DNA of 35,784 nucleotides from Dysgonomonas sp. Marseille-P4677 (GTDB taxonomy: Bacteria > Bacteroidota > Bacteroidia > Bacteroidales > Dysgonomonadaceae), in the NCBI RefSeq assembly GCF_016652235.1, contig NZ_JAEPKU010000034.1:1-35784 (forward strand), written 5' to 3'. A program made the position numbers and the translations under genes. This document shows, in pieces, positions 860 to 26,585 of the stretch. Under the pieces are notes generated by a model. It was not told the origin of the DNA and did not search any database. It saw nothing but the letters and a program-made list of their open reading frames with translations. The stretch's first letter is position 1, and each line of letters begins with the position of its first letter.

Positions 860-1780
860 CTACTTTATTGGTAACAATTTTGAGTTCCACTCATAATCTG
901 ATTGCCGATAGGCCTTAGGGGACAGACCTACTGTCTTTTTGAAAATACGGCTAAAATAATAAGGATCATCAAAAGCCAGCTTTAAGGCTATCTGGCTAAT
1001 TTTCATATTGGTACTTTTGAGCAGCTGGCAAGCTCTTTGTATTTTCAACTGATTAAAATATTCCACGGGGGCATATTGAATCTCTTTAAAAAAAAGACGA
1101 TAAAAATAAGATTCTGAATAGCCAAAATATGTAGCCAGATCTTTTAATGTTAATTTGTTTTCTATATTTTCATACATATAGTGGGTTGCCAAACTGATAA
1201 AAAAAGTTTTCTCGGCTTTGGTATTTGAATATTTAGCCAGTCTGTAAATCGGAACATATAGAAACGTACTGATCAAATGATTAAAACCCAGATTTACATA
1301 AATTATAGTACTTTCTGTAATCTCACTTTCCATCACATTTAAAAGTTCATCGAAATAGCTGATCCTGTCGTTTATTCTGGAGTTACCGTCAATACCAATA
1401 GGTAGAACGCCGTGCAATTTTTCATAGATAGCTTCAGATTTTTTCCCTTTAAAATGTACCCAATAGATAAACCACGGATTATCCTTACTTGAACCATATT
1501 GGTGAGGAGTTTCGGCAGGAAGTACAAAAAAATGATTCTCTGGTACTACATGTTTTTCCCCATTTAATATGAACCACCCTTCGCCTTTGGTACAATAAAT
1601 AAGTATATGTTCTCCACATCCAGACTCTCTGGATATAAAATGGTTTTCAGCTTTTGGGAAATAGCCCATAGAATGTACCACTAAATCGGATGTTAAGGGA
1701 TTATTTAAAGCTTCTTCCACAACAAAAAAAGGATATACAACAAGCCTTTGCCCTGTGAAACCATGTTTTATTTTGATCAT
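860..1780 (-). CDS. AraC family transcriptional regulator
   Basis: A 306-residue regulator with two domains. The N-terminal cupin-like arm (about residues 30-140) has the sugar-sensing AraC_binding pattern, including a PAETPHQYG segment. The C-terminal pair of helix-turn-helix motifs (about residues 200-300) contains LTLKDLATYFGYSESYFYRL and ends in the classic PYYFSRIFKKTVGLSPKAYR region. Proteins of this type are usually activators of neighbouring sugar-catabolic genes. It lies on the same strand as the epimerase and kinase genes but is separated from them by 391 bases with its own -10-like box. It is the only transcription factor in the window, so it is the best candidate regulator of the divergent nanE-ROK and glycyl radical operons. 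That assignment, and the inducer, are inferred. Confidence 0.93.
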   Translation of the reverse strand: MIKIKHGFTGQRLVVYPFFVVEEALNNPLTSDLVVHSMGYFPKAENHFISRESGCGEHILIYCTKGEGWFILNGEKHVVPENHFFVLPAETPHQYGSSKDNPWFIYWVHFKGKKSEAIYEKLHGVLPIGIDGNSRINDRISYFDELLNVMESEITESTIIYVNLGFNHLISTFLYVPIYRLAKYSNTKAEKTFFISLATHYMYENIENKLTLKDLATYFGYSESYFYRLFFKEIQYAPVEYFNQLKIQRACQLLKSTNMKISQIALKLAFDDPYYFSRIFKKTVGLSPKAYRQSDYEWNSKLLPIK

Positions 1781-2171: not shown

Positions 2172-2912
2172 TTAATGCTTGCTGATTTCTGCTTCTCTCC
2201 AATTGTCCTGATAACCACTTAATAGATCCACAAAACGTTTAGTTATAAGATGAGGCCGAGTAATGGCACTTCCTACAACCACAGAATGAGCACCGAGAAA
2301 TAGTACCTTCATTGCATCTTCCGGCGTATAAATGTGACCTTCCATAATTATATAAACTTTATCTTTAAAATCACGGCACATGCGGGCGAATTCTCTCAAA
2401 TCGGGATATTCTATATGTTTAGTGTCGGCAGTGTAGCCATATAAGGTCGGTCCTATAATATCTGCTCCCATTTCGAAGGCTCTTACAGCTTCATTATAAT
2501 TAGCTACATCAGCAAATATTATGGCTTCAGGAATTTCTTTTTTTACTATAGGAAGTAACTCATAGGCGTGCCTGCCTTCATGAGTGATTTGTTCGGTACA
2601 GTCCAATGCAATTATTTCAGCTCCTGCTTCCCAAACTTGTTTTGCGGCTTCCAGAGTTGGAGTAATAAATACGTCTGTATCATCATGCCATATTTTATAA
2701 AGCCCTATTACAGGCAAATCAACTTCTTTTTTGATAGCCCTGATCTGATCAGGTGAATTAGCCCTAATTCCTACTGCACCACCCCATTGGGCCGCTTTTG
2801 CCATTTTTACAACAAAATCTATAGAAAAGGTTGGATCATCATGTTGAACTTGACACGACACGATTAATCCTCCTTTAAAAGATTCGATAAGTTCTCTTTT
2901 TCTTGTATCCAT
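2172..2912 (-). CDS. nanE: NanE-like N-acylmannosamine-6-phosphate 2-epimerase
   Basis: A 246-residue cytoplasmic TIM-barrel protein of the NanE family, which interconverts N-acetylmannosamine-6-P and N-acetylglucosamine-6-P. Family landmarks are present in order: GGLIVSCQ (residues 14-21), GGAVGIRAN (44-52), the catalytic Lys at 73, ITPTLEAA, GADIIGPTLYGYT, the general acid/base Glu at 191, and GAHSVVVGSAITRP near the end. Some positions differ from the usual NanE: K-IWHDD replaces the common K-R-x-Y-x-DS, and EGHIYTP replaces EGRIxTP, so the true substrate may differ. It follows the ROK kinase gene after 42 bases and is probably co-transcribed with it. No NanA-type sialate lyase is in the window, so a sialic acid role is not shown. 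It may instead serve the divergent glycyl radical pathway. Confidence 0.85.
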   Translation of the reverse strand: MDTRKRELIESFKGGLIVSCQVQHDDPTFSIDFVVKMAKAAQWGGAVGIRANSPDQIRAIKKEVDLPVIGLYKIWHDDTDVFITPTLEAAKQVWEAGAEIIALDCTEQITHEGRHAYELLPIVKKEIPEAIIFADVANYNEAVRAFEMGADIIGPTLYGYTADTKHIEYPDLREFARMCRDFKDKVYIIMEGHIYTPEDAMKVLFLGAHSVVVGSAITRPHLITKRFVDLLSGYQDNWREAEISKH

Positions 2913-2954
2913 AAAATTATATTTATTTAAGGTACTAGACTCGTCTTTATTTAA

Positions 2955-3923
2955 TTACATAATTTTTTCCAAAAATGCAGCGCCGATGATGCCTGCATCA
3001 TTTCCTAACGAAGCGCATATTACAGGGGGAACTCCAATCTCATCCCCGGCATGAGTATATATTCTTAACTTTTGATTTACCGGCTTTAAGATCAAATCTC
3101 CGGCATGGGCAATTCCTCCTCCAAGCATAATTACTTCGGGACGAAAAATAACAACAAGGCTCGAAATTCCTGCCGCTAAATAACTCGTATAATCATCTAA
3201 TAACTTTATAGCAACAGGGTCCCCATCTATAGCAGCTCTACATATAATTTCTCCATTTATGTTGTTCTCATTGTTTTTAGCCAAACTAAGAATCAAACTT
3301 GACGGTTCCTTTCTTACAGCCTCATTAGCTGCCCTTATAAGAGCGGTTGCAGAACAATATGCTTCTAAACAACCTTTTTGACCACATGTGCATAGTGCTC
3401 CATCATACATAAGCTTAGTATGCCCTAATTCTGCACCCATATTATCTGCACCCGCATATATTTTATTATCAATGATTATTCCACCACCGACACCTGTTCC
3501 AAGTGTCAGCATCAAAGCAGTGCTGTACTGACTTGCAGAACCAGCTAAAATCTCACCATAAGTCGCACCATTAGCATCATTTGCTATATAAATAGGAAGA
3601 GGTATATGTTTCTTCAAATAATCGTAAATAGGTATATTCTTCCATCCGAAACAATTAGCGTGTACAAGTAAATTTGTTTTAGGATTGATATTACTTGGCA
3701 TACAGATTCCCCATGAGGATATGTTATCAATACTCAAACCTGCTTTTTGTATAGCTTTTTTACTAACATCAGCCATATTATAAACAAGTTCATCGACCGT
3801 GTTTCCGATTTTTGCGGATATTCCTTCTTTAGCGATAATGTTATAGCTTTCATCAACAATACCTGCGACAAAGCTTGTTCCTCCGACATCCAGTCCTAAA
3901 TAATACTTTTTGGAAATTTTCAT
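2955..3923 (-). CDS. ROK family sugar kinase (NanK/glucokinase-like)
   Basis: A 322-residue ATP-dependent sugar kinase of the ROK family. It has the phosphate-binding LGLDVGGTSF motif (from residue 9), the catalytic Asp116 in ANDANGA, the GTGVGGG loop, and the ROK zinc site with Cys178, Cys180 and Cys185 in CTCGQKGCLEAY following the GAELGHT histidine. ROK kinases phosphorylate the 6-hydroxyl of glucose, N-acetylmannosamine, allose and similar sugars; specificity cannot be read from the sequence. With the adjacent NanE-like epimerase it would form a phosphorylate-then-epimerise pair. It is the first gene of the minus-strand operon and is divergent from the glycyl radical enzyme across 268 bases containing both promoters. 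Confidence 0.92.
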   Translation of the reverse strand: MKISKKYYLGLDVGGTSFVAGIVDESYNIIAKEGISAKIGNTVDELVYNMADVSKKAIQKAGLSIDNISSWGICMPSNINPKTNLLVHANCFGWKNIPIYDYLKKHIPLPIYIANDANGATYGEILAGSASQYSTALMLTLGTGVGGGIIIDNKIYAGADNMGAELGHTKLMYDGALCTCGQKGCLEAYCSATALIRAANEAVRKEPSSLILSLAKNNENNINGEIICRAAIDGDPVAIKLLDDYTSYLAAGISSLVVIFRPEVIMLGGGIAHAGDLILKPVNQKLRIYTHAGDEIGVPPVICASLGNDAGIIGAAFLEKIM

Positions 3924-3959
3924 TTGGTTAACTTTTATAGAATTTAATTTAACACTCTA

Positions 3960-3967
3960 CAAAAGTA
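3960..3967 (-). promoter_or_regulatory. Candidate -7 box of the ROK-nanE operon
   Basis: TACTTTTG on the minus strand is an exact match to TAnnTTTG and lies 36 bases before the ROK start codon. The -33 position reads TTTT instead of TTTG. Confidence 0.5.
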
Positions 3968-4108
3968 AATATTGGAATATTGAATAAAAATGTAATATAA
4001 TTGATAAAAGAATGGAGTATTATTGCATATGCTTTCAACTTTCGATTGAATCATCGTTTTATGATATTTGCATGCAAGTATAATCCATCTTTTTGAGCGA
4101 TTCTCTAC

Positions 4109-4140
4109 ATTGTCCGTAACTTTTATCTTTATTATTTTTG
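4109..4140 (+). promoter_or_regulatory. Candidate promoter of the glycyl radical operon
   Basis: ATTG at 4109-4112, a 20-base spacer, then TATTTTTG at 4133-4140. This matches the Bacteroidota -33/-7 pattern with one mismatch in the -33 box. It would give a leader of about 45 bases before the ATG at 4192. The divergent ROK promoter lies about 140 bases away, so one regulator could control both. Confidence 0.55.
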
Positions 4141-4191
4141 TCTAAAATTCAAATTAACAATTAGTTATATATTGATTGATCACGGAATATT

Positions 4192-6474
4192 ATGGCAAAA
4201 TTTGATGTGGAGATAGTGCAAAATGTAGAAATCAGCAAAAAACTGGCTAGTGAGAAATCGTTGCTTGAGCAATTAGAAATTATGGAACGATATACAACAG
4301 TTCACAAAAAAAAATCGAAATATTCAAAAGAGATGCGGGAGGTGGAATGTCTGAAGGTTCTGTACCCTGCCCTTTTTCGCAAAATAGCCGATACAGATTT
4401 GATTGCCGGTAGATTCGATGTGCTACCAATTGGTTTTGGAGCAGTAACATCTTTAGGGGGAGTCGGTCATTTTTGTGTATTCCGTAAATTACGCGATTTT
4501 CAAAAAAAACTTGAGGAAAAAGATAAATTTCGTGTAGACGCCTTATATGATTATTGGCTGGATCACGACTTGAAAACTCAGTATAATAGGGAAATGATTA
4601 CAGAAGATACCGTTGGTATGTTTATAGACTGTGAATATCCAATGATCGCAACAGCCCGTTTGTCCGGGATGATGCTCGACTATCCAAAATTGTTGGATAA
4701 CGGTATCGGCGGACTTCGCAGGATATTGACGGAGCATCTGAAAAAACAGCCTGATAATGACTTTTATAAAGCGGGCCTTCAATGCCTTGATATTTTTGTG
4801 GATTGTGCAACAGCTCTTCAGATAGATACTCTGAAACAGATGAAGTCAACAGACAATAAGCAAAGATATAATGAGCTAAAACGGATGCACGTAGCCCTTG
4901 AAAATATTAAGGAAAATAGTCCGCAAACATTTCACGAAGCCATGCAACTCTTTTGGCTGTATGCCATGCTAGCCGGAGTTATCAACTATGGCCGATTGGA
5001 CGATTACCTTGGTCCCTATCTGGTCGCAGACCTGAAGGCCGGCCGCTTGACTATGGATGAGGCTTACAACTATATCTATTCGCTTTGGACAATGATAGAA
5101 AACCGTCGAACGACAGTAAACGGGCGTGTTATTGTAGGTGGAAGGGGGCGTAAGCATCCGAAAGAAGCTGATGTATTTCTACATTTGGCAATGAAGGTCG
5201 CTAAAAACTCGAAGTATGTAGAACCTCAATTTACACTGCGTGTAGATAATGATACACCGGAAGAAGTCTGGGATGAGGCTCTCGATGCCTTAGGAGCCGG
5301 CGCAACATATCCTACTTTGTATAATGATGAAGTTAATGTTCCTGCTGTTGCTTATGGCATGAGAGTAGATGAAAAAACTGCGGAACAATATGTTCCTTTC
5401 GGTTGTACTGAATTTGTAATACAAGGACAGAGCACAGGAACGCCTAATGTCTGTATTAACCTCCTTAAAATCCTCACTATTTTTATGAATGATGGAATCG
5501 ACCCTATGGATGGTAAAAGGAAAACAGGTTCGATGCAGGTCAAAAAGTTAGAAGAATACAACACATTTGAGAACTTCTATAATGATTATAAAAAGTTCCT
5601 CGATTATTATCTGGACTTATCAGTTCAGGCGCAGTATCATTCTTATGAGGTAATGAACAAGCACGTTAGTTTTTTGTTTGCCAGCCTGCTTACGGATGAC
5701 TGTATTGAAAGGGGAAAGGCATTACTGGATGGTGGCGTTCGTTATCTCGGCGGGACAAATGAAACTTATGGAAATATCAATACTTCCGATTCGCTATGGG
5801 CAATAAAGGACCTCGTATTCGACCGCAAGAAGTATACTCTACGTGAGCTAAATAACGCAATGCTAACTAATTTTATAGGATACGAAGAAATACGAAAAGA
5901 TTGTCTGGATTGCGATAAATATGGTAACGATCTTGATACTGCCGATACTATGGCAAACGATCTGTATGAATTTGTCGCTAAAGGAGTGCGCGATAGGGGG
6001 ATTGCAATAGGAATGCAGTATTTTCTTATTGTAATAAGCAATAACCAATTAAACACGGAATGGGGAAACAGAACAGGGGCTTCCCCTGACGGAAGGCTGT
6101 CAGGTATGTATATGAACCCTGCAAATAATCCTCAGGGAGGAGCAAATAAAAGTGGACCGACAGCTATGCTGAATTCGTTAGCCAAGTTTGATGCTAAGTA
6201 TCATGGCGGATCTGTTCAGAATATCAAATTCTCTCCATCGATGTTCAATGAACACAGAAATTTGATAAAAGTATTGTTTAAAACCTATTTTGCCAAAGGT
6301 GGATGCCATCTGATGGTAACGGTCGTAGACAAGGGTATATTGGAGGATGCGGTTAAACATCCGGAAAAATATCCCGATCTGATTGTACGGGTAAGTGGTT
6401 TCTCCGCCATTTTCGTCGATTTATCACCTAATATTCAAGAAGAATTGATGAGCCGTGTTTTATATAATAAGTAG
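4192..6474 (+). CDS. Glycyl radical enzyme of the PFL-like family (eliminase/dehydratase type, substrate unknown)
   Basis: A 760-residue cytoplasmic enzyme of the pyruvate formate-lyase-like superfamily. The thiyl radical Cys405 and general base Glu407 lie in VPFGCTEFVIQGQS. The Cys-x-Glu pattern is that of radical eliminases such as glycerol, propanediol, choline and hydroxyproline enzymes, not of PFL itself, which uses Cys-Cys. The glycyl radical site is Gly736 in RVSGFSAIFVDLSP, 25 residues from the end, as expected. The PFL-like domain fills most of the protein. The GCTE...GQSTGTPN signature does not match any characterised class I know. Its activating enzyme follows after 2 bases, and a sugar kinase and sugar-phosphate epimerase are divergent. 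A phosphorylated sugar or sugar alcohol is therefore a reasonable but unproven substrate. The radical is destroyed by oxygen, so the host is anaerobic. Confidence 0.93.
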   Translation: MAKFDVEIVQNVEISKKLASEKSLLEQLEIMERYTTVHKKKSKYSKEMREVECLKVLYPALFRKIADTDLIAGRFDVLPIGFGAVTSLGGVGHFCVFRKLRDFQKKLEEKDKFRVDALYDYWLDHDLKTQYNREMITEDTVGMFIDCEYPMIATARLSGMMLDYPKLLDNGIGGLRRILTEHLKKQPDNDFYKAGLQCLDIFVDCATALQIDTLKQMKSTDNKQRYNELKRMHVALENIKENSPQTFHEAMQLFWLYAMLAGVINYGRLDDYLGPYLVADLKAGRLTMDEAYNYIYSLWTMIENRRTTVNGRVIVGGRGRKHPKEADVFLHLAMKVAKNSKYVEPQFTLRVDNDTPEEVWDEALDALGAGATYPTLYNDEVNVPAVAYGMRVDEKTAEQYVPFGCTEFVIQGQSTGTPNVCINLLKILTIFMNDGIDPMDGKRKTGSMQVKKLEEYNTFENFYNDYKKFLDYYLDLSVQAQYHSYEVMNKHVSFLFASLLTDDCIERGKALLDGGVRYLGGTNETYGNINTSDSLWAIKDLVFDRKKYTLRELNNAMLTNFIGYEEIRKDCLDCDKYGNDLDTADTMANDLYEFVAKGVRDRGIAIGMQYFLIVISNNQLNTEWGNRTGASPDGRLSGMYMNPANNPQGGANKSGPTAMLNSLAKFDAKYHGGSVQNIKFSPSMFNEHRNLIKVLFKTYFAKGGCHLMVTVVDKGILEDAVKHPEKYPDLIVRVSGFSAIFVDLSPNIQEELMSRVLYNK

Positions 6475-6476
6475 AA

Positions 6477-7385
6477 ATGGAGAAAAGAATATCTATAATG
6501 GAGATTGAGCGCTTTGCCATTCATGATGGTCCGGGCATACGTACAGTCGTTTTTCTTCAGGGATGCCCGTTACGCTGTTCATGGTGTTCGAATCCCGAAT
6601 CACAAATGATCGGGCCTCACTTGTTATATATAAAGAATAAGTGCGTCGGTTGTGGTACATGTGCAAGAACATGCATTCATGGTAATATTAGAATGGAAGG
6701 ATATTATCCTGTGTTCGATAGGAAAAAATGTGTTGCAAGCAAAGCATGTGCCAAGACTTGCGTACATAACGCCATAAAATTTGTCGGCGAATCTGTTTTT
6801 GCCTCCGAGATCATGGATGTGGTAGTACGTGACCGGGATTATTATGAAGTTTCCGGAGGCGGCATAACATTTTCGGGAGGAGAACCTTTTGTCCAATTTG
6901 ATGGACTAATGCAATTGTTGACTATGAGTAAAAAAGAAAAGTTGCATACAACCATAGAGACCTGTGGACAAGTTGAGCTGGAAAAGATAAAAAGAGCTCT
7001 TCCTCTGACTGACCTGTTTTTGTTCGACATTAAGCACGCAGACAGATATATGTTGAAAAAAGAAACGAATGCTGATCTGGATACAATATTGACTAATATG
7101 CGTTTTATAGCCCAACAAGATTCAACAAAGATTATTATCAGAATTCCAATTATTCCCGAATATAACTTTAACGAAAAAACTATAGGGAAAATATATGATC
7201 TGGCAATAGAGAATAATATAAAACAGGTGAGTTTATTACCTTATCACACATTAGGAAAAGATAAATATGAACAATTGGGAACTGAATGTACATATTCTTC
7301 TAAACAGATGCTATTAAAAGAAGATTTGCTTCCTCTAAAAAAAATGGGAGAAAGGAGAGGTTTAACGATACGGATAGGAGGATAA
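6477..7385 (+). CDS. Glycyl radical enzyme activating enzyme (radical SAM)
   Basis: A 302-residue radical SAM activase that would install the glycyl radical on the upstream enzyme. The SAM-cluster cysteines are Cys30, Cys34 and Cys37 (GCPLRCSWCSNPES), and GGGITFSGGEP is the SAM-binding GGE motif. Between them sits a ferredoxin-like insert typical of non-PFL activases. The first cluster has four cysteines (56, 59, 62, 66). The second has only Cys85, Cys91 and Cys95, with Ser88 (AGC) where the fourth would be. The gene starts 2 bases after the enzyme's stop, so the two are translationally linked. Identity as the partner activase is secure from this linkage; the altered second cluster is unusual. 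Confidence 0.95.
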   Translation: MEKRISIMEIERFAIHDGPGIRTVVFLQGCPLRCSWCSNPESQMIGPHLLYIKNKCVGCGTCARTCIHGNIRMEGYYPVFDRKKCVASKACAKTCVHNAIKFVGESVFASEIMDVVVRDRDYYEVSGGGITFSGGEPFVQFDGLMQLLTMSKKEKLHTTIETCGQVELEKIKRALPLTDLFLFDIKHADRYMLKKETNADLDTILTNMRFIAQQDSTKIIIRIPIIPEYNFNEKTIGKIYDLAIENNIKQVSLLPYHTLGKDKYEQLGTECTYSSKQMLLKEDLLPLKKMGERRGLTIRIGG

Positions 7386-7477: not shown

Positions 7478-9955
7478 ATGAAGAAACTAATAATCACATA
7501 TTGTCTGGTATGTTTTTGTCTGACAATACACTCGCAAATTCCAAACATAGGAGAAGTGACATCTTTTATTAAAAAAACAAATAGTATAGAAGGAGAAACT
7601 CCCTCTGCTAAATTTCAAGTAAAAGCATATAACAATCATATTATACGGGTGAGAGTTACACAGAATTCAGCTTTTAATTCGGTTCATTATGCACTCATGG
7701 ATTCGTTACCTGATAATGCTCAATGCTCTTTTTCTGAACAAGATACTGCCATAATGCTTAGCACACCCAATATTCAGACTATTATAACCATCAAACCTTC
7801 ATTTGGTGTTATTTTCAAGAATAACAATGGTGAAACTGTAAATGAAGATATGCGGGGGAAATACTTTGGTACCACCTTCTATGGGAATAAACCCACTAAT
7901 TATAAGATTACGCAAAAAGGTGAACGCTTTGTAGGCTTAGGCGAAGTATTAGGCAATCTCGACAAAAGAGGGATGGTATTTACCCTCAACAATACTGATA
8001 CATATAAATATGGTGACCCACGTCTGTCTATGTATATAAGTATTCCTTTTTATATTGGTATACACAATGGACTTATGTACGGTTTGTTTTTCAATAATAC
8101 TTACAAATCAGTATTCAACTTTGCCAGTTCTACACCGTTTACATCGGTTAGCATGGACGGAGGAGATATGGATTATTTCTTTATCTATGATACGTCGATA
8201 GATAAGATACTTGAACATTATGCGACTATTACAGGGCATACACCTCTGCCTCCCAAATGGAGTATGGGTTTTCATCAAAGTCGTTGTTCGTATTATCCGC
8301 AAAGCCAAGTGGAAAATATTGCTCAAACATTTCGTGACAAACAAATTCCGCTCGACTGTATTGTGCTTGATGCTGATTATCTACATGAATATGAACCTTT
8401 CCGTATCAATACATACCGTTTCCCTGATATAAAAGGGTTGGCTGAAAAGATGTCAACTATGGGCATCGAACTTACGGCTTCCGTTAATCCTGGTATCAAA
8501 ATAGATTCGACATACGATGCCTATCTGGACGCAATGAAAAAAGATGTTTTCCTAAAATATGCGGATGGTACAACTTTTACGTCCGACATTGCACCCAATA
8601 CCAATAATTATATAGATTATACTAATCCTAGAGGACGTGAATGGTGGATCGATAAGATGAGGTTTCTTGCCGACATTGGTATTCACGGATACTGGAATGA
8701 TATGAACGAACCTGCATTAGTGGCAAGTTACATGCCCGATAATATACTGTTTGATTTTGAAGGACGCCGAGCCAATGCGCCGGAAGCCAAAAATGTATTT
8801 GGAATGCAAATGGCCCGTAGCAGTTATTTATCAGCATTAAAATATAACCCTGACTTACGTCCCTTTGTCTATACACGTTCGGCTTTTGCGGGTATTCAGC
8901 GCTATGCCGCTGTATGGAGCGGAGACAATACAGCTAGTGATGAAGGTTTACTGACTAGCATTTTATTAAATAATCAAATGAGCCTGTCAGGTATCCCTTT
9001 TTGCGGCCCAGATTTGGGAGGCTATATCGGTGACGGGTCCAAAGATTTGTTCAAACGCTGGATACAGGTAGGTATATTCTCTCCCTTTGTACGTAACCAT
9101 AAAGAATACTTTGCCACTGCCAATGAGCCTTGGGCTTATGGAGAAGAAGTGGAAGCCATATCTAAAACCTACATCAATTTTCGTTATCGTTTGATGCCGT
9201 ATATATACGACAAATTCTATGAAACCTCACAGACTGCGATGCCTATTACACGCAGCTTATGTGTCAATTATCCGTTCGATGATAAAGTATACAGTATAGA
9301 CAATCAATATGAGTTCTTATTCGGTGATGCATTCTTGGTTATCCCTGTTACATCGAAGGAAACAACAAAAAAAATCTATCTACCCGAAGGACAATGGTAT
9401 GATCTTTTTACAGACCACTCAATAGATGGTAAAAAAGAGATAAGAGTTGATGTGCCAAGTTATCAAATACCTGTTTATGTAAAGGCATCATCCATTATTC
9501 CCATGCAGAAAATAACGCAGTCGACTAAAGAGAATCCTGGCGATACCTTGTATTTACACATATATGCAGGTAAAACACCAAATACTTATGTGCATTATGA
9601 GGATGATGGAAACAGTTTTGCCTACAAGAAAAATATGTATGCGAAACGTACGATACAATATGACCCAGATAATAAGAGAATTACATTCTCAGCGAAAGAG
9701 GGGGATTTTATATCACCCTACAAGAAAATACAAATTATATTGCATGGGTTCGATTATCTAAAGCAAATACGATGTAACAACAAAGTATTATCTCTGCATA
9801 AAGCAAATATTCCGGTACTCAACCCACTCGATAATCTTAAAGATTTTTATGATAAAACTATATATAACACAGCCATAAACAGTATATTACAAAATGAGCA
9901 ACATATCTTTGTTGTTAATAATAGTAATGCAATAATAGAAATTGACTTGGAATAA
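7478..9955 (+). CDS. Exported GH31 family alpha-glucosidase
   Basis: An 825-residue glycoside hydrolase family 31 protein with a Sec signal peptide (cleavage near IHS-Q, residue 19-20), so probably periplasmic. Domain order is typical: N-terminal beta-sandwich, (beta/alpha)8 barrel from about residue 240, then C-terminal beta domains. The nucleophile is Asp408 in GYWNDMNEP and the acid/base is Asp483 in WSGDN, both intact. Most relatives release alpha-linked glucose; alpha-xylosidase or other GH31 specificities cannot be excluded from sequence alone. It lies 92 bases after the activase gene with no obvious terminator between, and before the oxidoreductase cluster, so it may be read with either group. 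Confidence 0.93.
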   Translation: MKKLIITYCLVCFCLTIHSQIPNIGEVTSFIKKTNSIEGETPSAKFQVKAYNNHIIRVRVTQNSAFNSVHYALMDSLPDNAQCSFSEQDTAIMLSTPNIQTIITIKPSFGVIFKNNNGETVNEDMRGKYFGTTFYGNKPTNYKITQKGERFVGLGEVLGNLDKRGMVFTLNNTDTYKYGDPRLSMYISIPFYIGIHNGLMYGLFFNNTYKSVFNFASSTPFTSVSMDGGDMDYFFIYDTSIDKILEHYATITGHTPLPPKWSMGFHQSRCSYYPQSQVENIAQTFRDKQIPLDCIVLDADYLHEYEPFRINTYRFPDIKGLAEKMSTMGIELTASVNPGIKIDSTYDAYLDAMKKDVFLKYADGTTFTSDIAPNTNNYIDYTNPRGREWWIDKMRFLADIGIHGYWNDMNEPALVASYMPDNILFDFEGRRANAPEAKNVFGMQMARSSYLSALKYNPDLRPFVYTRSAFAGIQRYAAVWSGDNTASDEGLLTSILLNNQMSLSGIPFCGPDLGGYIGDGSKDLFKRWIQVGIFSPFVRNHKEYFATANEPWAYGEEVEAISKTYINFRYRLMPYIYDKFYETSQTAMPITRSLCVNYPFDDKVYSIDNQYEFLFGDAFLVIPVTSKETTKKIYLPEGQWYDLFTDHSIDGKKEIRVDVPSYQIPVYVKASSIIPMQKITQSTKENPGDTLYLHIYAGKTPNTYVHYEDDGNSFAYKKNMYAKRTIQYDPDNKRITFSAKEGDFISPYKKIQIILHGFDYLKQIRCNNKVLSLHKANIPVLNPLDNLKDFYDKTIYNTAINSILQNEQHIFVVNNSNAIIEIDLE

Positions 9956-10176: not shown

Positions 10177-11370
10177 ATGAACCGTAAGCAATTTATATCA
10201 CGTTTAAGTTCTATTGGAGTTGCAGCAGTTGCCGCACCCGTCATAGGCACATCTTCTCTTGAGGCTGCTACCTCATTTGCAAAGGCCCCAACAATTTCTT
10301 CAGACAAGAAAATACGCGTAGGGATTATTGGATGCGGAAGTGTATCAGGTATGTATCTGCCACATTTAATAAAATGCCCTTATGCTGAAGTTGTAAGTGT
10401 CTGTGATATTATACCACAGAGGGCGCAAGAGGCTGCTAAAAAATATAATGTAAAGAACTGGTATCCTCATATTGATAAGATGTTAGCCGGAGTTCCTTTT
10501 GATTTATTTGTGAATCTTACAGATATGCAAGAGCATGGTCGTTTAAATCGGATAGCTCTGCTAAAAAATATCAGCGTATGGAGTGAAAAACCGATGGCTA
10601 ACACTTATGAAGAAGGGCGTGAGCTGTACGAACTTGCTAAAAATCAGGGAGTGCGGATATGGGGGGCACCAGCTGTTGTAAACAGCCCTCAATTTGCCTT
10701 CATGGCAAAGCAAATTAATGAAAATAAACTGGGACGCATAGCTGCCGCACATGCGCATTATGGACATCAAGGACCTAACTGGTCTGCGTTCTTCTTTGAA
10801 GAAGGCGGGGGAAGCTTGCCGGACCTGGGTGTATATAATATATCCACACTGACAGGATTGTTTGGTCCCGCTAAGTCGATTATTGCAATGACTAATGTTG
10901 TAGACCCTACCCGTAACACAGGGAATAAAGGTCATATTCAGGTTGTAGCGGAAGATAATGCCATGATCATTATGGAGCATCAAAATAATGTACTCACTCA
11001 TATTCAGTGTGGTTTTAACTATTTTGATCCGTATGGGCACGAGGGTACAGGTCAAGAACGTCCGACTATATCTGTAGTTGGTTCTACTGGCAATATGCAT
11101 ATGATTGGTTATGACTGGAAACCATTTGCCGTGGATATGGCAACTACAGCCCACGAAAATACGCAACGTTTTGTTACAGATAGAGGTACTTTCCTTTGGG
11201 AAGAGGGTGCGTCTATTGTCTGCGAATCAATGGCGACAGGAAAAGACCTGTTGATAAATGCAGAGCATGCCTTACATGTTTTGGAAATTATAGAAGCCGC
11301 ACGATTTTCGCAAAAAGAAGGGCGGAGGATTTCTCTGAAATCATCTTTCAAATGGCCGGTTGTAATATAA
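10177..11370 (+). CDS. Gfo/Idh/MocA family oxidoreductase, exported (first of two)
   Basis: A 397-residue NAD(P)-dependent oxidoreductase. The N-terminus MNRKQFISRLSSIGVAAVAA resembles a Tat signal but with Arg-Lys in place of twin Arg. The Rossmann fold begins at IRVGIIGCGSVSG (about residue 47) and the family Lys is Lys138 in WSEKPMA. In the C-terminal domain, the usual D-x-x-x-H catalytic pair reads DLGVY, giving Asp216 and Tyr220, so a Tyr replaces His. Members of this family oxidise or reduce sugar hydroxyls. Together with the DUF1080 protein, a second oxidoreductase and an isomerase-fold protein downstream, it fits the 3-keto-glycoside pathway, in which one member oxidises the sugar C3 hydroxyl and another enzyme breaks the glycosidic bond. 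Which of the two oxidoreductases starts the pathway cannot be told here. Confidence 0.9.
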   Translation: MNRKQFISRLSSIGVAAVAAPVIGTSSLEAATSFAKAPTISSDKKIRVGIIGCGSVSGMYLPHLIKCPYAEVVSVCDIIPQRAQEAAKKYNVKNWYPHIDKMLAGVPFDLFVNLTDMQEHGRLNRIALLKNISVWSEKPMANTYEEGRELYELAKNQGVRIWGAPAVVNSPQFAFMAKQINENKLGRIAAAHAHYGHQGPNWSAFFFEEGGGSLPDLGVYNISTLTGLFGPAKSIIAMTNVVDPTRNTGNKGHIQVVAEDNAMIIMEHQNNVLTHIQCGFNYFDPYGHEGTGQERPTISVVGSTGNMHMIGYDWKPFAVDMATTAHENTQRFVTDRGTFLWEEGASIVCESMATGKDLLINAEHALHVLEIIEAARFSQKEGRRISLKSSFKWPVVI

Positions 11371-11427: not shown

Positions 11428-11550
11428 CAATTTGTAACGATTAAAAGCCAGCTTGCCTAAATTTAAAAATGATAGTTATACGGTTTAATGAGTCATTATA
11501 GTGATTGATTCCTATTTATGATGTACTAAATGAATCAGAATAAAAGAATT

Positions 11551-12342
11551 ATGAAGAAGATTTTTTATTTTTCACTTATACTTATTGTCGCATCATTATA
11601 TGCGTGCAATGGTAAAAAAACAGAACAGCAAATTGCTGATTCTGAAAAAACAGTAAATGATCCGATGACCTTGTACAATGAAATCGATCGGACTTCAGCA
11701 CCTAATACTATAACAGAGACTGAAAAATCGAAAGGGTGGCAACTTTTATTTGACGGAACTACCGCCAAAGGATGGCACGGTTATAATCAGAAAGGCGTTC
11801 CTGGCTGCTGGGCTGTTGAAGATGGAACACTGACGATGAAAAGCGTAGGAGCTCAAGAAGAACAAGACCTTATTACTGATAAGCAATACAAGAGTTTTGC
11901 TCTATCGTTGGAATATAAAATGACAAAAGGAGCAAATAGCGGTGTGCTTTTTCAGATCAAAGAAGACCCCAAATATAAGTTTGCATATGAAACAGGTCCT
12001 GAATTTCAGGTCATCGATCACGAGAATTGGGCTGATCCTCTCGAAGACTGGCAAATAAACGGAGGCAATTATGCCATGTATCCACCTAAAGCAAAACCGT
12101 ATAAACCTTTAGGCGAATGGAATCAGTTGATGCTGGTAGTGAATGAAAATGATGTAACTCAGATACTGAACGGGGAAGAAACTGTACAATACACTAAATA
12201 TTCAGACGAATGGACCAAATTGCGCAATAGTGGCAAATGGTCAGATTTTCCGGATTATGGTAAATTTGACGAAGGGCATATCTCATTACAAAACCACGGA
12301 ACAAAGGTGTGGTACAGAAATATCATGATTAAAGAACTTTAA
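11551..12342 (+). CDS. DUF1080 / 3-keto-disaccharide hydrolase domain lipoprotein
   Basis: 263 residues. The start is placed at the ATG at 11551 because it opens a clean lipoprotein signal (MKKIFYFS...SLYAC, lipid-modified Cys19); a start 21 bases upstream is possible. The mature protein is one concanavalin-like PF06439 domain, with the usual opening WQLLFDGTTAKGWHGY and later GANSGVLFQI, GPEFQVIDHENW and ISLQNHGTKVWYRNI segments. Family members act on 3-keto sugars made by Gfo/Idh/MocA dehydrogenases, cleaving or hydrating the oxidised glycoside. The next gene starts 9 bases after the stop, so they are co-expressed. Membrane anchoring places this step in the periplasm or at the surface. The exact reaction is inferred from the family. 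Confidence 0.88.
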   Translation: MKKIFYFSLILIVASLYACNGKKTEQQIADSEKTVNDPMTLYNEIDRTSAPNTITETEKSKGWQLLFDGTTAKGWHGYNQKGVPGCWAVEDGTLTMKSVGAQEEQDLITDKQYKSFALSLEYKMTKGANSGVLFQIKEDPKYKFAYETGPEFQVIDHENWADPLEDWQINGGNYAMYPPKAKPYKPLGEWNQLMLVVNENDVTQILNGEETVQYTKYSDEWTKLRNSGKWSDFPDYGKFDEGHISLQNHGTKVWYRNIMIKEL

Positions 12343-12351
12343 AAACTATAC

Positions 12352-13836
12352 ATGATTATGACTACTCGTAGAAATTTCTTAAAAAAATCAGCTATAGCTG
12401 CTGCCGGTTTATATATATTTCCATCGAATGTAATCAGTGGACTAGGGCATAAAGCACCAAGTGACAAACTGAATATTGTAGGTGTAGGTATTGGAGGAAA
12501 GGGGCATCCTAATCTTGTGGGGATGAATACAGAAAATATTATTGGCTTATGTGATGTGGATTGGGCTTATGCGAAAGGCTGTTTCAACGAATTCCCCAAA
12601 GCTAAAAGATATAAAGACTGGCGTAAAATGTTTGATGAACTTGGTAAAGAGATAGATGGTGTAATGATCTCTACTCCCGACCATACACATGCCATTATAG
12701 CTGCTACTGCTATTACTATGGGAAAACATGTATATTGCCAAAAACCTCTCACTCATTCTATATACGAAAGCCGCCTGTTGACACGTTTGGCTGCGAAGTA
12801 CAAAGTAGCGACACAGATGGGAAATCAAGGCAATTCTGGTGATGGAGCACGCCAGGTATGCGAATGGATATGGAACGGAGAGATCGGAGAGATTCGTGAA
12901 GTTCATGCCTGGACTGACCGACCGATATGGCCTCAGGGACTACAGCGCCCCAAAGAAGTTGTGAAAGTTCCTTCAACTTTAGATTGGGACAATTTTATCG
13001 GGCCAGCCCCATTCCGTCCCTACAATCCTGTATATACACCTTGGAACTGGCGAGGATGGTGGGATTTCGGAACCGGAGCATTCGGTGATATGGCATGTCA
13101 TGTACTAGATCCTATCTATCAGGCATTGAAGCTGGGATATCCTACTAAAATACAAGGTAATTCATCTCTGATAAATACAGAATCACCACCTCAAAGCGAA
13201 CAGGTGGAATTTACATTTCTTGCGCGCGACAACATGCCTAAAGTTGCTATGCCAGAGGTAAAGGTATATTGGTATGATGGCGGACTATTCCCTCATCGTC
13301 CGGATTTATTGCCTGATGGAACTGATCTTATGCGTGATGGACTTGGTGGTTGCCTTTTTATCGGATCAAAAGATACATTGCTTACGGATTGCGGAGGTTT
13401 TAATCCTCGTTTGCTATCGGGGCGTATTCCGAACGTACCTCAGACACTTCGTCGCATTCCGGGTGCTACAGGCTATTTTGATGGATATCATGAGCAGGAC
13501 TGGGTGAGAGCTTGCAAAGAATCGTCTGAAAACAGAGTAGAGACATCCAGTAATTTTGCATATGCAGGGCCATTTAATGAAATGGTATTACTCGGTGTGC
13601 TTGCCATTCGTTTGCAAAGTCTGAATAAAGTATTGAAATGGGATGGGCCAAATATGAAATTTACAAATATAGGAGCAAATGAAGAATTAAGAATTGTGTC
13701 AAAAGACAGTTTCTGGGTTAAAGACGGTCATCCTCACTTTGACAGAGAATATGTAACATTAAATGCCCAATCATCCGCTTCCGAATATATAAAACATACA
13801 TATAGAGATGGTTGGTCTTTACCAGCTATGCCTTAA
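12352..13836 (+). CDS. Gfo/Idh/MocA family oxidoreductase, Tat-exported (second of two)
   Basis: A 494-residue NAD(P)-dependent oxidoreductase with a perfect Tat signal, TRRNFLKKSAIAAAGLYIF. It would be folded around its cofactor in the cytoplasm and then exported, as for glucose-fructose oxidoreductase of Zymomonas. The Rossmann glycines are in VGVGIGGKG (about residue 43), the family Lys is Lys131 in CQKPLTHS, and the catalytic pair Asp246 and His250 is intact in GAFGDMACHVLDP. The extra C-terminal length relative to the first paralogue is usual for this subfamily (PF01408 plus a long C-terminal domain). It is tightly linked to the DUF1080 gene. A role as a C3 dehydrogenase or as the reductase that regenerates the cofactor at the end of the 3-keto cycle is inferred. 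An alternative start lies at 12358. Confidence 0.91.
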   Translation: MIMTTRRNFLKKSAIAAAGLYIFPSNVISGLGHKAPSDKLNIVGVGIGGKGHPNLVGMNTENIIGLCDVDWAYAKGCFNEFPKAKRYKDWRKMFDELGKEIDGVMISTPDHTHAIIAATAITMGKHVYCQKPLTHSIYESRLLTRLAAKYKVATQMGNQGNSGDGARQVCEWIWNGEIGEIREVHAWTDRPIWPQGLQRPKEVVKVPSTLDWDNFIGPAPFRPYNPVYTPWNWRGWWDFGTGAFGDMACHVLDPIYQALKLGYPTKIQGNSSLINTESPPQSEQVEFTFLARDNMPKVAMPEVKVYWYDGGLFPHRPDLLPDGTDLMRDGLGGCLFIGSKDTLLTDCGGFNPRLLSGRIPNVPQTLRRIPGATGYFDGYHEQDWVRACKESSENRVETSSNFAYAGPFNEMVLLGVLAIRLQSLNKVLKWDGPNMKFTNIGANEELRIVSKDSFWVKDGHPHFDREYVTLNAQSSASEYIKHTYRDGWSLPAMP

Positions 13837-13956: not shown

Positions 13957-14772
13957 ATGAAATCCTTTAAGTTACTTTTATTATCTGTTATTCTATCTTT
14001 TACAGCCTGTAAAGAAGAAGTGAAGCAACCTGAATGGAAACTGGGTATCCAAACGTATACATTTCACAAATTTACATTGATGGAGACATTAGACAAATCA
14101 AAGGATCTTGGTCTTCATTATGCCGAAGCTTATTTCTTCCAGACATTAGGGGGGAATTTCGCTGACACGGCTTATCTGAATTTCGATATCACAGATAATG
14201 TAAAAAAGCAATTAAAAGAAGAATTCGCTAAACGTGATATTAAACTCTATGCATTTGGAGTAGCATTCTATGATGCGACAGAGGATTGGGAGCGCTTTTT
14301 CAGTTTTTCTAAAGATATGGGGATACATACTATAACTTGTGAACCGAAACTCGAACATCTTGATTTTGTGGAAGAACTTGCACTGAAATATAATATAGAA
14401 GTCGCGATACATAATCATCCGGACCCATCTATTTATGCAGACCCGAATGTATTATTTGGAGCGCTTGAAGGGCGTAACCAGATAATGGGTGTATGTGCCG
14501 ATATTGGTCATTGGAAGAGAACCGGTAATGATCCGATAGAAACACTTAAAAAATTTGAAGGACGTATAAAGGTCGTACACATAAAAGACCTGGATGAAAA
14601 AATGAAAGATACAACATGGGGTACCGGAGTCTTACAGGTAAAAGAAGTTCTGAATGAATTGAAAAGACAAAGGTTTAATGGTCTTATCTCTGTAGAATAT
14701 GAAGATTTTGGTGATTCGCAGTTGGACGATATTAAAAAAAGTCTGGAATACTTTAATCAGAATTTAAATTAG
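13957..14772 (+). CDS. Sugar isomerase/epimerase-fold (AP endonuclease 2-like TIM barrel) lipoprotein
   Basis: A 271-residue protein with a lipoprotein signal ending SFTAC, Cys18. The residues after the Cys are Lys-Glu-Glu, which resembles the surface-export signal of Bacteroidota lipoproteins. The mature part is a PF01261 TIM barrel with likely metal ligands in ITCEPKLE, AIHNHPD, CADIGHW, VHIKDLD and SVEYED. Cytoplasmic relatives isomerise sugars such as xylose or myo-inosose, but exported lipoprotein versions occur with Gfo/Idh/MocA and DUF1080 genes, where a lyase or hydratase role on 3-keto sugars is the established context. It ends the cluster that begins at 10177. The precise step is inferred. 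Confidence 0.88.
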   Translation: MKSFKLLLLSVILSFTACKEEVKQPEWKLGIQTYTFHKFTLMETLDKSKDLGLHYAEAYFFQTLGGNFADTAYLNFDITDNVKKQLKEEFAKRDIKLYAFGVAFYDATEDWERFFSFSKDMGIHTITCEPKLEHLDFVEELALKYNIEVAIHNHPDPSIYADPNVLFGALEGRNQIMGVCADIGHWKRTGNDPIETLKKFEGRIKVVHIKDLDEKMKDTTWGTGVLQVKEVLNELKRQRFNGLISVEYEDFGDSQLDDIKKSLEYFNQNLN

Positions 14773-15160
14773 AGTAAAAAGAATAATCAAAGCCTTTACT
14801 ATTGCCTGGTCGATTTTGAGCTGATTTTCACTTAGCTCTCTATTGTTACTATATCTCCAGACTGAGATCTTAAATCTGATAACTGTAAAATAAATAGTTA
14901 ACTTCTTACGGCGTTTTGTGGCATATTAATGCGGTTAAAAACTACGTAAATTTACCACAATTTAAATTTTACAAACATTTTATAATAATTACTTACGTCT
15001 AACAAAAATCTAATATCAAACGAACAGAACCCTACTATAAAGATAGTACTCGTCTATCATTGTGTACAAATTGGAAACAGCTAAAACTGATTTTCGACTG
15101 TTCTGCCGTTCATGGAAGATTTATTTAAAAAATGTATGTTTAAATAAAAAGCTTAAAACT
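14773..15160. other. Region upstream of susC
   Basis: 388 bases between the isomerase-fold gene and susC. I find no exact TTTG-N20-TAnnTTTG promoter and no convincing terminator; the nearest boxes are TACTATTG and TATCATTG, each one base off the -7 consensus and without a -33 box. A small inverted repeat, GATAG/CTATC, lies around 15042-15058. The main PUL promoter must be here or upstream and is probably activator-dependent. The open frame upstream of the susC ATG is treated as leader. Confidence 0.4.
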
Positions 15161-18100
15161 ATGAAAATTAAATCAAAAAAGACATTTGTTAAAAAGGCTT
15201 CGAACCTAACCTTGCGAAGAAGCTTATTGGTCTTTACTTGCCTTTTATTGGTGAGTATAGCTAATATTTATGCGCAAACAAAGACAATTACAGGTATGGT
15301 AACAGATGTTGGAGGCGAGCCTCTTATCGGGGTTAGCGTTCAAGTAGAAGGAACATCTATTGGTACTGTTACTGACATTGACGGAAAATATTCTATTTCA
15401 GTACAAAACGGTAATGTAATCGAATTTACATACATCGGAATGCAATCGCAAAAAATTATAGTAGCCTCCCAAAGTGTAGTGAATATTGTAATGCAAGATA
15501 ATGCTACAATGCTTACTGAGACTGTAATAATAGGATATGGTACTGCAAAAGCCAAGGACTTGACATCTCCAATAGCTACTATCGACGGAAAAGAAGTGAA
15601 CAAGCATCTGACTGCATCGCCAATGCAGGCTATGCAAGGAAAAGTCTCCGGATTGCAGGTTATCAATACCGGGCAGCCGGGTAGCTCTCCTAAGGTGCGT
15701 ATACGTGGAATAGGGAACTACGATAATGACAAACAGGGTCCACTATATGTCGTAGATGGTATGTTCTTTGATAACATAGATTTTCTGAACAATGCAGATA
15801 TTGAAAATATCAGCATACTAAAAGATGCCTCAGCTGCTGCTATTTATGGAGTGCGTGCTGCAAATGGGGTGATTCTCGTTACAACTAAAAAAGGCGTAAC
15901 CAACAGAAGACCTCAAATTGTATATGATGGGTATTTTGCAATACAAAAAGCTTCTAATTTGGTCAAGATGGCCAATTCGGAACAATATGCCACTGTGATG
16001 AAAGAAATTGGAAATACAACTTCAATCGATCAATCTATAGCAAAATATGGAGGTAGTAACGGCATTCCGGCTGTAAATACAGATTGGTTTGACGAAATTC
16101 TGAAACCAGCACCTATGCATAGTCATTCGATTAGTGTGAACGGTGGCGGAGAAAAGACGTCATATTCAGTGGGAATCAGTTATCTGAATCAGGATGGTAT
16201 TCTTGATACCGACAATAGTTATGAACGCCTTAATCTTAGGACAAAAGTTGATATAGGAATAACTGATTGGCTAAAAGTAGGCGGTAGCTTCATCGTTATG
16301 AACAGCGACCAGAGACTTGCCAATAAAAGTGCTTTTGGTAATGCTTATACATCACCATCCATCTATCCGGTATATAATAAGAACGGCAAAGGAGGAACAC
16401 TCAATCCGAAAAACTATGTATCGCCTGAAGAAATAGGATTAGGTCAGTATTTCTGGAATCCGGTAGCTTTAGCTGATTATTATAATGATAAAGTAGGTAT
16501 AACACAGGTACTACCAGCCATGTATATGGAATTATCGTTTCTTGAAAGTAAACTGACATTTAGGACCTCTTTCAATCAGGACCTGGCCTTCCAACGTAAT
16601 CGCCAGTTTCTGCCTCAATATGAAATTTCATCCAATCAACAGAGGGCAAAGAGCTTATTGACCAAATCAACAGAATATACAAACAATTGGCTCATAGACA
16701 ATATATTAACATATCGTGATTCATTCAATGATAGTCACAATCTGACAGTAATGGCGGGTACTTCGGTACGTAAAGATCGTTGGGAAAGACTACGTCTCCA
16801 AGGCGATGGAGTTCCAGGAGAAAGAGACGAATATTGGTATCTACATAATAGTGATGGTATCATTGCGCAAGATAGTGATGAGGATACTTGGTATGATCAT
16901 GCTCGGGAATATAGGGGCGCTTCATTTTTTGGACGTGCCATGTACGACTATAAGGGAAGGTATCTTCTATCTGCTACATTCCGTGCTGACGGATCAAGTA
17001 AGTACCAGGAAAAATGGGGCTATTTTCCTTCTGTTGGTTTGGGATGGGTGCTCTCAGAAGAAAGTTTCATGAAGAACCAAAGTATCTTTGATTTCCTGAA
17101 GATAAGGGGTAGCTGGGGATTGTTAGGCAATGACAAAATACAAGGCAATGATGGCTTTCCTTCTATTACACAGGAGACAGGATATTTCAATGGACAATTA
17201 CATACTGGTACTTCCAGTCTCTCTTTCTTCACTTTTTTGAAGTGGGAAAAGGTAGAAGAATGGGATTTTGGTTTGGATTTTACAGTTTTGAACAATCGTC
17301 TTAGTGGAGAATTTGATTATTTTAAGCGTACGACAAAAGATGCCGTATTTAGGAAAGAATTGCAACTAGGTGCAGGTTCATTATTAATGAACAACGGAGA
17401 GATACAGAATTCGGGCATTGAATTATCTCTAAATTGGGAAGACCGTATAGCTAAAGACTTTACATACAATATCGGTGTAAATATGTCGACCTTGAAAAAT
17501 AAAGTTACAAAACTGGATGATCTCGATAGAATCATTACAACCGGAGACTATAGTCGTATAAGACAAGTAGGACAAGTTGTAGATGCGTATTATGGTTATG
17601 TGATGGATGGAATATATCAAAATCAGGCTGAAATAGATAATGATCCTACATTAGCTGATATCGCCAGCAAGCCGGTTCCTGGAGATATTAAATTTAAGGA
17701 TCTTGATGGGGATGGTAAGTTAACCGATCAGGATAGGGACGTATTAGGATCACCACTTCCTAAACTATTTTTAGGAGGTAATATAGGATTCACATACAAG
17801 AATTTCGATTTTGGAACTGCTTTCCAAGGGCAGTTCGGGCATAAGATATTGAATCATAAACGCTTCATGAGACAAAAACAATCGGATATTAACTTCGACG
17901 AAAATATTATAAAAAACAGGTGGACAGGAGAAGGATCTACAAACAAATATGTATCAGGTGCTGCTTTAGGACATACATGGACATACAGTAAGTTTAATAC
18001 ATTCTTTGTTGAAAATGCAAATACATTTACAATTCAGAATATACAGTTCGGATATACTTTTCAGAATATTTTCCCGAAAAGTAATAATAGGTCTAGTATG

Positions 18101-18238: not shown

Positions 18239-18266
18239 ATCTAATAATTAAGATAATAAAAAAATT

Positions 18267-19730: not shown

Positions 19731-19750
19731 AGTATTAAATATTTCATTTT

Positions 19751-19778
19751 TCTGGCATCTGTATCTGCAGATGCCAGA
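19751..19778 (+). terminator. Strong hairpin between susD and the enzyme genes
   Basis: TCTGGCATCT (19751-19760) pairs perfectly with AGATGCCAGA (19769-19778) over an 8-base loop, and is followed by TTATAATTCTTTTCTT. It lies 20 bases after the susD stop. It looks like a partial terminator or mRNA-end stabiliser that gives more susCD than enzyme mRNA. It also covers the in-frame ATG at 19771, which argues that translation of the next gene starts at 19795. Confidence 0.6.
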
Positions 19779-19794
19779 TTATAATTCTTTTCTT

Positions 19795-21963: not shown

Positions 21964-21967
21964 ATAT

Positions 21968-24211: not shown

Positions 24212-24247
24212 AAAAATAAGTTATTAGGATATAAAATATAATTAGAA

Positions 24248-26539: not shown

Positions 26540-26585
26540 CTGATAGCTACTCACTGTTTTCTATTACTTTTTAATTGCTGATGAT

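Follow-up and report, generated by a model that had tools for sequence, protein, structure and literature searches.

A divergent glycyl radical enzyme linked to a NanE-like epimerase in Dysgonomonas: a candidate anaerobic module for hexose phosphates

A stretch of 35,784 nucleotides from Dysgonomonas sp. Marseille-P4677 (contig NZ_JAEPKU010000034.1; the whole stretch is referred to here as the window) encodes a glycyl radical enzyme (GRE) which, judged by model scores and tree placement, belongs to no characterised family among those compared, and which is accompanied by its activase, a ROK-family kinase and a NanE-type epimerase, all four genes being intact. It is proposed that these proteins form an anaerobic sugar-phosphate module in which a kinase, a C2 epimerase and a radical elimination would act successively on a hexose 6-phosphate, a reading to which we give an even chance of being correct. 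The initial annotation of this DNA had described the GRE as divergent from the ROK and NanE-like genes with an AraC-type gene nearby, and the coordinates and families were confirmed; the activase gene, which starts 2 nt past the GRE stop codon, also lies within the 2172-7385 module that had been described. The principal features are as follows.

2172-2912, minus strand: NanE-like sugar-6-phosphate 2-epimerase of a GRE-linked subfamily, 246 aa (PF04131, PRK01130)
2955-3923, minus strand: ROK-family sugar kinase, glucokinase-like, 322 aa (PF00480)
3924-4191: divergent intergenic region of 268 bp between the ROK and GRE start codons, a presumed promoter region (from open reading frame coordinates only)
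4192-6474, plus strand: GRE of an uncharacterised clade, 760 aa (C405, E407, N419, G736)
6477-7385, plus strand: GRE-activating radical SAM enzyme (activase), 302 aa (TIGR02494)
860-1780, minus strand: AraC-family regulator (PF12833, PF02311), which probably controls the GRE cluster

Membership of the GRE superfamily is clear from matches over the Pfam cut-offs to PF02901 (434.1 bits) and PF01228 (94 bits), and the adjacent activase scored 322.9 bits with TIGR02494 (cut-off 174.35). The scores of the GRE with models of individual families are far lower than their cut-offs: 252.2 bits against 1109 for the PflD-type model NF007437 (PRK09983), 271 against 1100 for HypD (NF043068), 266.4 against 1050 for CutC (TIGR04394), 211-249 against 1000-1150 for the sulfopropanediol dehydratases and the indoleacetate and 4-hydroxyphenylacetate decarboxylases, and 97.8 against 994.2 for pyruvate formate-lyase (TIGR01255). 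The tree agrees, since the GRE clade (support 100/100) falls outside a clade, with 82% bootstrap, that unites YbiW, PflD, HypD and CutC with the GRE of a propanediol locus, and the enzyme groups neither with PflD nor with YbiW of Escherichia coli; for benzylsuccinate synthase, isethionate lyase and glycerol dehydratase the comparison was confined to PDB sequence scores and fold rows. Thus, clustering inside a characterised family, which was to have refuted the earlier proposal, was not encountered, and the view that the GRE fits no known class held for the classes against which it was compared. The GCTE/GQSTGTPN signature is a feature of the whole family, with Thr or Gly as residue 406 in the 11 members displayed. 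Only one other GRE was retrieved from the genome (4.73 Mb, 278 contigs) by the Gly_radical family search, at a separate locus, and it groups with the pyruvate formate-lyases.

The active site gives a consistent picture. The intact Gly736 radical site, in the motif RVSGFSA, and the eliminase-type pattern Cys405-Thr-Glu407, both recognised in the initial annotation, are present in the window and invariant in 53/53 full-length members (window included; 53 of the 59 sequences are full length, and all conservation figures for this family refer to them), as are N419, R156, R305, R306, R312, R320, M160 and M161. The structure alignment of the GREs covered 28 of these 53 sequences. Residues 303-317 (ENRRTTVNGR-IVGG) form a stretch of 15 residues in the family and in a sister clade, compared with 28 in all eleven other aligned GREs. 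The segment ARLSGMML stands where several known GREs, such as glycerol dehydratase, carry a substrate-binding histidine, and Asn419 occupies the position of Asp447 of glycerol dehydratase. The invariance of H93 and R306 in the family does not extend to the sister clade, and our guess is that these two residues might bind phosphate. Relative to known systems, the B12-independent glycerol and propanediol dehydratases, HypD and CutC are thus set apart from the window GRE by these residues or by the HypD and CutC model scores, and pyruvate formate-lyase by its adjacent cysteines in place of Gly-Cys-x-Glu. A parallel in chemistry is offered by YbiW and PflD, which act on 1,5-anhydroglucitol and 1,5-anhydromannitol 6-phosphate and likewise combine a Cys-x-Glu GRE and an activase in a sugar-phosphate pathway; however, the window GRE lies in another clade, is only 23-26% identical to them by structure alignment, has other active-site residues and a 303-317 loop that is 13 residues shorter, and has as its partner a NanE-like protein, often with a ROK kinase, instead of FsaA or a phosphotransferase system.

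Linkage, the lack of which in related genomes was also to have refuted the earlier proposal, is conserved. A scan of 84,980 species genomes returned 59 loci, 58 of which are relatives with 60-95% GRE identity and which, together with the window, make up 59 places; the remaining locus (L059, 29% identical) holds a different GRE and was excluded from all counts, whereas two pieces of one gene on different contigs of a metagenome-assembled genome (MAG) were counted as two places (L012 and L058). Because the seed patterns of the scan favour close relatives, the family is surely larger than counted. These relatives occur in Bacteroidales, Clostridia and Erysipelotrichaceae, hence in two phyla, the nearest of them being a Dysgonomonas MAG with a 95% identical GRE. 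By tblastn, an activase gene was found near the GRE in 56/59 places (the misses, L034, L046 and L058, end at contig edges), a NanE-like gene in 53/59 (within 3 kb in 50/59), a ROK gene in 34/59 and an AraC-type gene in 33/59; of the 38 places whose flanks both exceed 3.5 kb, all have the activase, 35 the NanE-like gene and 27 the ROK gene. In three of the six places where the NanE-like gene is missing the sequence is cut short, L012 and L032 starting within the GRE and L016 stopping 966 bp past it. A NanE of the GRE-linked type is present elsewhere in the genome for L016 and L039, two of these six. As a background, a NanE match above 100 bits was obtained in 8 of the 148 Bacteroidota genomes sampled, that of the window being one of the eight, and the linkage between the NanE-like gene and the GRE exceeds chance. 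A minimal set of GRE, activase, DeoR and NanE-like genes is found in Erysipelotrichaceae-type loci (L041-L044, L052), and therefore it is the epimerase, rather than the kinase, that appears to be the core partner.

This cluster is rare and patchy. Among 393 genomes of the window's order, the GRE was found in the window's own genome alone, three others carrying the sister type (36-39% identity), and none of the three congeners has it; a search with the epimerase in the same order gave four others, whose identities of 34-36% place none of them in the GRE-linked type. In a strain of Parabacteroides distasonis, a species known as a human gut commensal (no host is given in the record of the strain), the genes stand in the order ROK-NanE-GRE-activase and a sugar O-acetyltransferase gene comes next; AraC and a 3-keto-glycoside set are close by. 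The contig in question (L151, NZ_OY725812.1) is labelled as a plasmid and yet carries dnaG, ftsH, lon, nusB and coaE, so that it is probably chromosomal. In Alistipes-type loci (L014:5357-10246 and L019:10431-16441) the NanE-like gene is followed by nucleotidyltransferase-like, phosphoglucomutase-family and MFS transporter-like genes.

With regard to the epimerase, membership of the NanE family follows from PRK01130 (241.3 bits, cut-off 189) and PF04131 (166.1 bits, cut-off 27). In a study of Staphylococcus aureus NanE (SaNanE), activity was lost without Lys63, Arg40 or Asp124 and fell to 0.05% without Glu180, the open chain is bound via Gln11 and Arg208, with Tyr149 around the acetamide, Phe72 occupies the position of an acetamide-contacting Tyr in the Clostridium perfringens enzyme, Gly181-Asn182 contact the phosphate through the main chain, and the mechanism employs the C1 aldehyde and the C5 hydroxyl (PMC8482478). 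The equivalents of Gln11, Arg40, Lys63, Asp124, Glu180 and Arg208, namely Q21, R50, K73, D135, E191 and R219, are each conserved in 54/54 GRE-type sequences, a set made up of 52 of the 53 linked copies (L015 being too short), L111 and L117; the canonical set used for comparison comprised 12 sequences, from which L070, L071 and the E. coli protein were omitted as too divergent (the last was printed alongside). The Tyr149 and Phe72 equivalents are also kept. The altered residues (K-IWHDD, EGHIYTP) reported in the initial annotation do not replace catalytic ones: class-specific changes do exist, with P155, Y158, M190, H193, Y195, W43 and Q108 in all 54 members, while every catalytic residue is kept. 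M190, H193 and Y195 flank the equivalents of Glu180-Gly181-Asn182, and P155 and Y158 lie near that of Tyr149. GRE-linked NanE proteins thus share with canonical ones the fold family and the residues named above, and differ in forming a single tight clade, separated by a long branch from canonical NanE (mostly 38-45% identical to it), in these class-specific residues and in a C-terminal tail, WRxxExxxH, as well as in the linkage to a GRE. The enzyme very likely still inverts C2 of an aldose phosphate by way of an enolate, and its substrate may differ. One GRE-linked and one canonical NanE coexist in 6/20 genomes examined (those of L018, L035, L036, L039, L041 and L057), and no NanE besides the GRE-linked copy was found in the window's genome. 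The GRE-linked epimerase of P. distasonis (L151:14180-14920) is annotated as N-acetylmannosamine-6-phosphate 2-epimerase, a label that may be wrong for this subfamily.

The kinase is a member of the ROK family (PF00480, 217 bits) for which both the best NCBIfam model, TIGR00744 for ROK glucokinase, and the best PDB match, 3vgk, are glucokinases, although the model score of 233.5 bits stays under the cut-off of 260.35.

Further indications as to the substrate were sought in the surrounding genes, which in the window include the following.

7478-9955, plus strand: GH31 family glycosidase, 92 nt past the activase gene (PF01055, 339 bits)
10177-11370, plus strand: Gfo/Idh/MocA oxidoreductase of a 3-keto-glycoside set (PF01408, PF22725)
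11530-12342, plus strand: 3-keto-disaccharide hydrolase domain protein, DUF1080 (PF06439, 166 bits)
12352-13836, plus strand: glycoside 3-dehydrogenase of the BT_2158 family (NF058561, 882.2 bits, cut-off 750)
13957-14772, plus strand: xylose-isomerase-like TIM barrel, AP_endonuc_2, at the end of the 3-keto-glycoside set (PF01261, 58.8 bits)

It is possible that the GH31 enzyme supplies hexose, and in the operon table of the loci it stands at this place in the window only (L061, also entered there, is the genome of the window itself). Further downstream, from 15062 to 28346, the open reading frames read as a polysaccharide utilisation locus, with genes for a SusC/SusD pair and for several glycosidase-like enzymes, two of them GH3-like. 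Among the relatives, a GH94-like enzyme is encoded near the GRE in 15/59 places, for which a phosphorylase role is doubtful because of apparent signal peptides in Bacteroidota; examples of this protein family are L029:13776-16028, for which no PDB sequence match was obtained, L018:13281-15536, L020:11910-14213 and L009:14699-16873. Single loci have GH1, GH3 or GH125 genes, or a GH5 gene nearest to xyloglucanases and endoglucanases, and a mannose-6-phosphate isomerase gene stands beside the GRE or activase gene in 3/59 places (for L008, the one tested, a match of 313 bits to 1qwr indicates the ManA type). E. coli nanA, nagA and nagB gave one match each in 60 loci, at 25-31% identity (E 1e-6 or better), and by this search amino-sugar genes are not conserved near the GRE. 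Taken by their families, the neighbours point to hexoses in general, that is, glucose, mannose or their oligosaccharides.

The sister clade, itself uncharacterised and 33-42% identical to the window GRE, comes from Persicobacter, 7/395 Bacteroidota genomes, three more genomes of the window's order and three clostridial-type genomes. An activase is present in 13/14 of its loci and an aldo/keto reductase in 6/14; NanE was found in 0/14, and ROK in 1/14, the basal member L176, together with a weak match to mannose-6-phosphate isomerase. In 8/14 loci the sister GRE has mannoside genes of GH92 or GH130 as neighbours, GH92 having been identified by Pfam in L166 and L189 and extended to five other loci by sequence clustering. 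Many of the sister loci (the clade comprising L152:14995-17208, L165-L171, L172:6700-8895, L174:5941-8166, L176:5922-8192 and L187-L189) also have AraC, nucleoside-hydrolase-like and gluconolactonase-like genes. Three very divergent clostridial GREs (L175:5581-7893, L177:6115-8325 and L173:6656-9022), each with an activase, lie inside no known clade; a reading of their neighbours gives Gfo/Idh (L175), a weak match to mannose-6-phosphate isomerase (L177), and an ABC transporter with a carbohydrate-kinase-like gene (L173).

The order of kinase, C2 epimerase and radical enzyme put forward in the initial annotation appears the most economical reading, and the linkage behind it is conserved; the anhydro-sugar that had also been considered as substrate fits poorly, given that the NanE mechanism uses a C1 aldehyde and a C5 hydroxyl and that the residues serving it are kept. 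Since all six SaNanE residues are retained, the enzyme most likely needs an open-chain aldose 6-phosphate, which is why this type of compound, rather than an anhydro-sugar, is placed in the pathway. The ROK kinase (or another kinase or transporter in lineages without ROK) would make the hexose 6-phosphate, whose open chain would be inverted at C2 by the canonical Lys/Glu mechanism of the NanE-like enzyme; the activase would install the Gly736 radical on the GRE, Cys405 would take a hydrogen from the carbinol carbon of one C2 epimer, Glu407 would deprotonate the hydroxyl of that carbon, and the neighbouring C-O bond would be lost in a dehydration. The mannoside genes by sister GREs, the mannose-6-phosphate isomerase and the hexose-type neighbours favour, with low confidence, a manno-configured hexose 6-phosphate, and mannose 6-phosphate made from glucose 6-phosphate is our tentative and admittedly doubtful choice. 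As a speculation, the axial hydroxyl at C2 of mannose 6-phosphate would be aligned with a radical at C1, and 2-deoxy-hexonolactone 6-phosphate would result; this alignment would explain the need for an epimerase. Extended further, and with slightly less confidence, the set might constitute a radical glucose shunt, in which a glucokinase, a 2-epimerase acting on glucose 6-phosphate and mannose 6-phosphate, and a glycyl radical dehydratase of hexose 6-phosphates would form a hitherto undescribed anaerobic branch of glycolysis, the sister GREs processing mannose.

Several observations weigh against this pathway. ROK is missing in 25/59 places, 11 of them among the 38 that are well flanked, and three well-flanked loci (L017, L037 and L039) have no NanE-like gene, the genome of L037 having a canonical-type NanE only and that of L017 (1.6 Mb) none. 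No dedicated gene for a downstream step is conserved among the loci, no solved complex closely resembles the GRE pocket, and the conserved acetamide-touching residues of the epimerase (the Tyr149 and Phe72 equivalents) mean that a 2-acetamido sugar may fit too. The link to mannose rests on few loci within the GRE family, and the mannoside genes of the sister clade are a raw count, which leaves room for chance; GH92 is common in Bacteroidota.

Other explanations may be considered. The retained acetamide surroundings, the NanE model score and the lack of another NanE in the window's genome would suit a route in which ROK phosphorylates N-acetylmannosamine or N-acetylglucosamine, the NanE-like enzyme converts their 6-phosphates into one another, and the GRE then eliminates the nitrogen group at C2. 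This is quite unlikely, considering that nanA, nagA and nagB are nearly absent from the loci (other deaminases could serve), that the GRE-linked NanE proteins form a separate clade and that the co-occurrence of both types in some genomes suggests a different substrate. Only slightly less unlikely is the reading that the GRE opens 1,5-anhydrohexitol 6-phosphates as YbiW and PflD do, the resulting 1-deoxyketose 6-phosphate then being the substrate of the NanE-like protein, which would serve either as a C3 epimerase or as an aldolase in place of FsaA. FsaA is a small TIM barrel, ybiW is also found near the aldolase gene fsaA, the window's genome encodes one TAL_FSA protein (220 aa), and the 3-keto-glycoside set near the GRE in 12/59 places could in principle feed anhydro-sugars; the chemical precedent itself is indicated by the titles of PDB entries 8id7 and 8id0 and by a review. 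Against this stand the position of the GRE outside the YbiW and PflD clades, with its score of 252 bits against the PflD-type cut-off of 1109, and the NanE mechanism, whose C1 aldehyde and C5 hydroxyl would not be offered alike by a 1-deoxyketose 6-phosphate.

The 3-keto-glycoside genes could instead provide the substrate directly, as a 3-keto or rare hexose (3-ketoglucose or allose) that would be phosphorylated, epimerised at C2 and dehydrated. The BT_2158-type dehydrogenase and DUF1080 genes, in 12/59 places each, and the Gfo/Idh genes, in 19/59, include clostridial loci of other layout; nevertheless, DUF1080 and the 3-dehydrogenase are both missing from 42/53 NanE-bearing places, and 31/53 also have no Gfo/Idh or AP_endonuc_2 match, which makes this very unlikely. 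Finally, the association could be regulatory only, with a pyruvate formate-lyase-like or other housekeeping GRE standing beside sugar genes by chance. The restriction of the cluster to a single genome among the 393 of the order is what would be expected of a mobile accessory cluster, but the genome has a separate GRE of the pyruvate formate-lyase type, the cysteine arrangement differs, and the adjacency of GRE and NanE persists across phyla, so that this explanation is highly improbable.

In conclusion, the module emerges from genome comparison as an uncharacterised GRE system with strong comparative support, from which we infer the pathway, and its GRE may cleave a six-carbon sugar phosphate at one of its bonds by an undescribed route. 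No description of a GRE-NanE module was found in the open-access literature searched, which is weak evidence of novelty. Characterised GREs set much of the anaerobic handling of choline, hydroxyproline, taurine-derived and anhydro-sugar compounds in the gut. Another deep clade of GREs, associated with a C2 epimerase and in many cases with a sugar kinase, would enlarge this repertoire by radical chemistry acting on a hexose phosphate. The automatic labelling of GRE-linked epimerases as sialic-acid enzymes would be corrected as well, and the presence of the cluster in a strain of P. distasonis makes the pathway testable in that organism.

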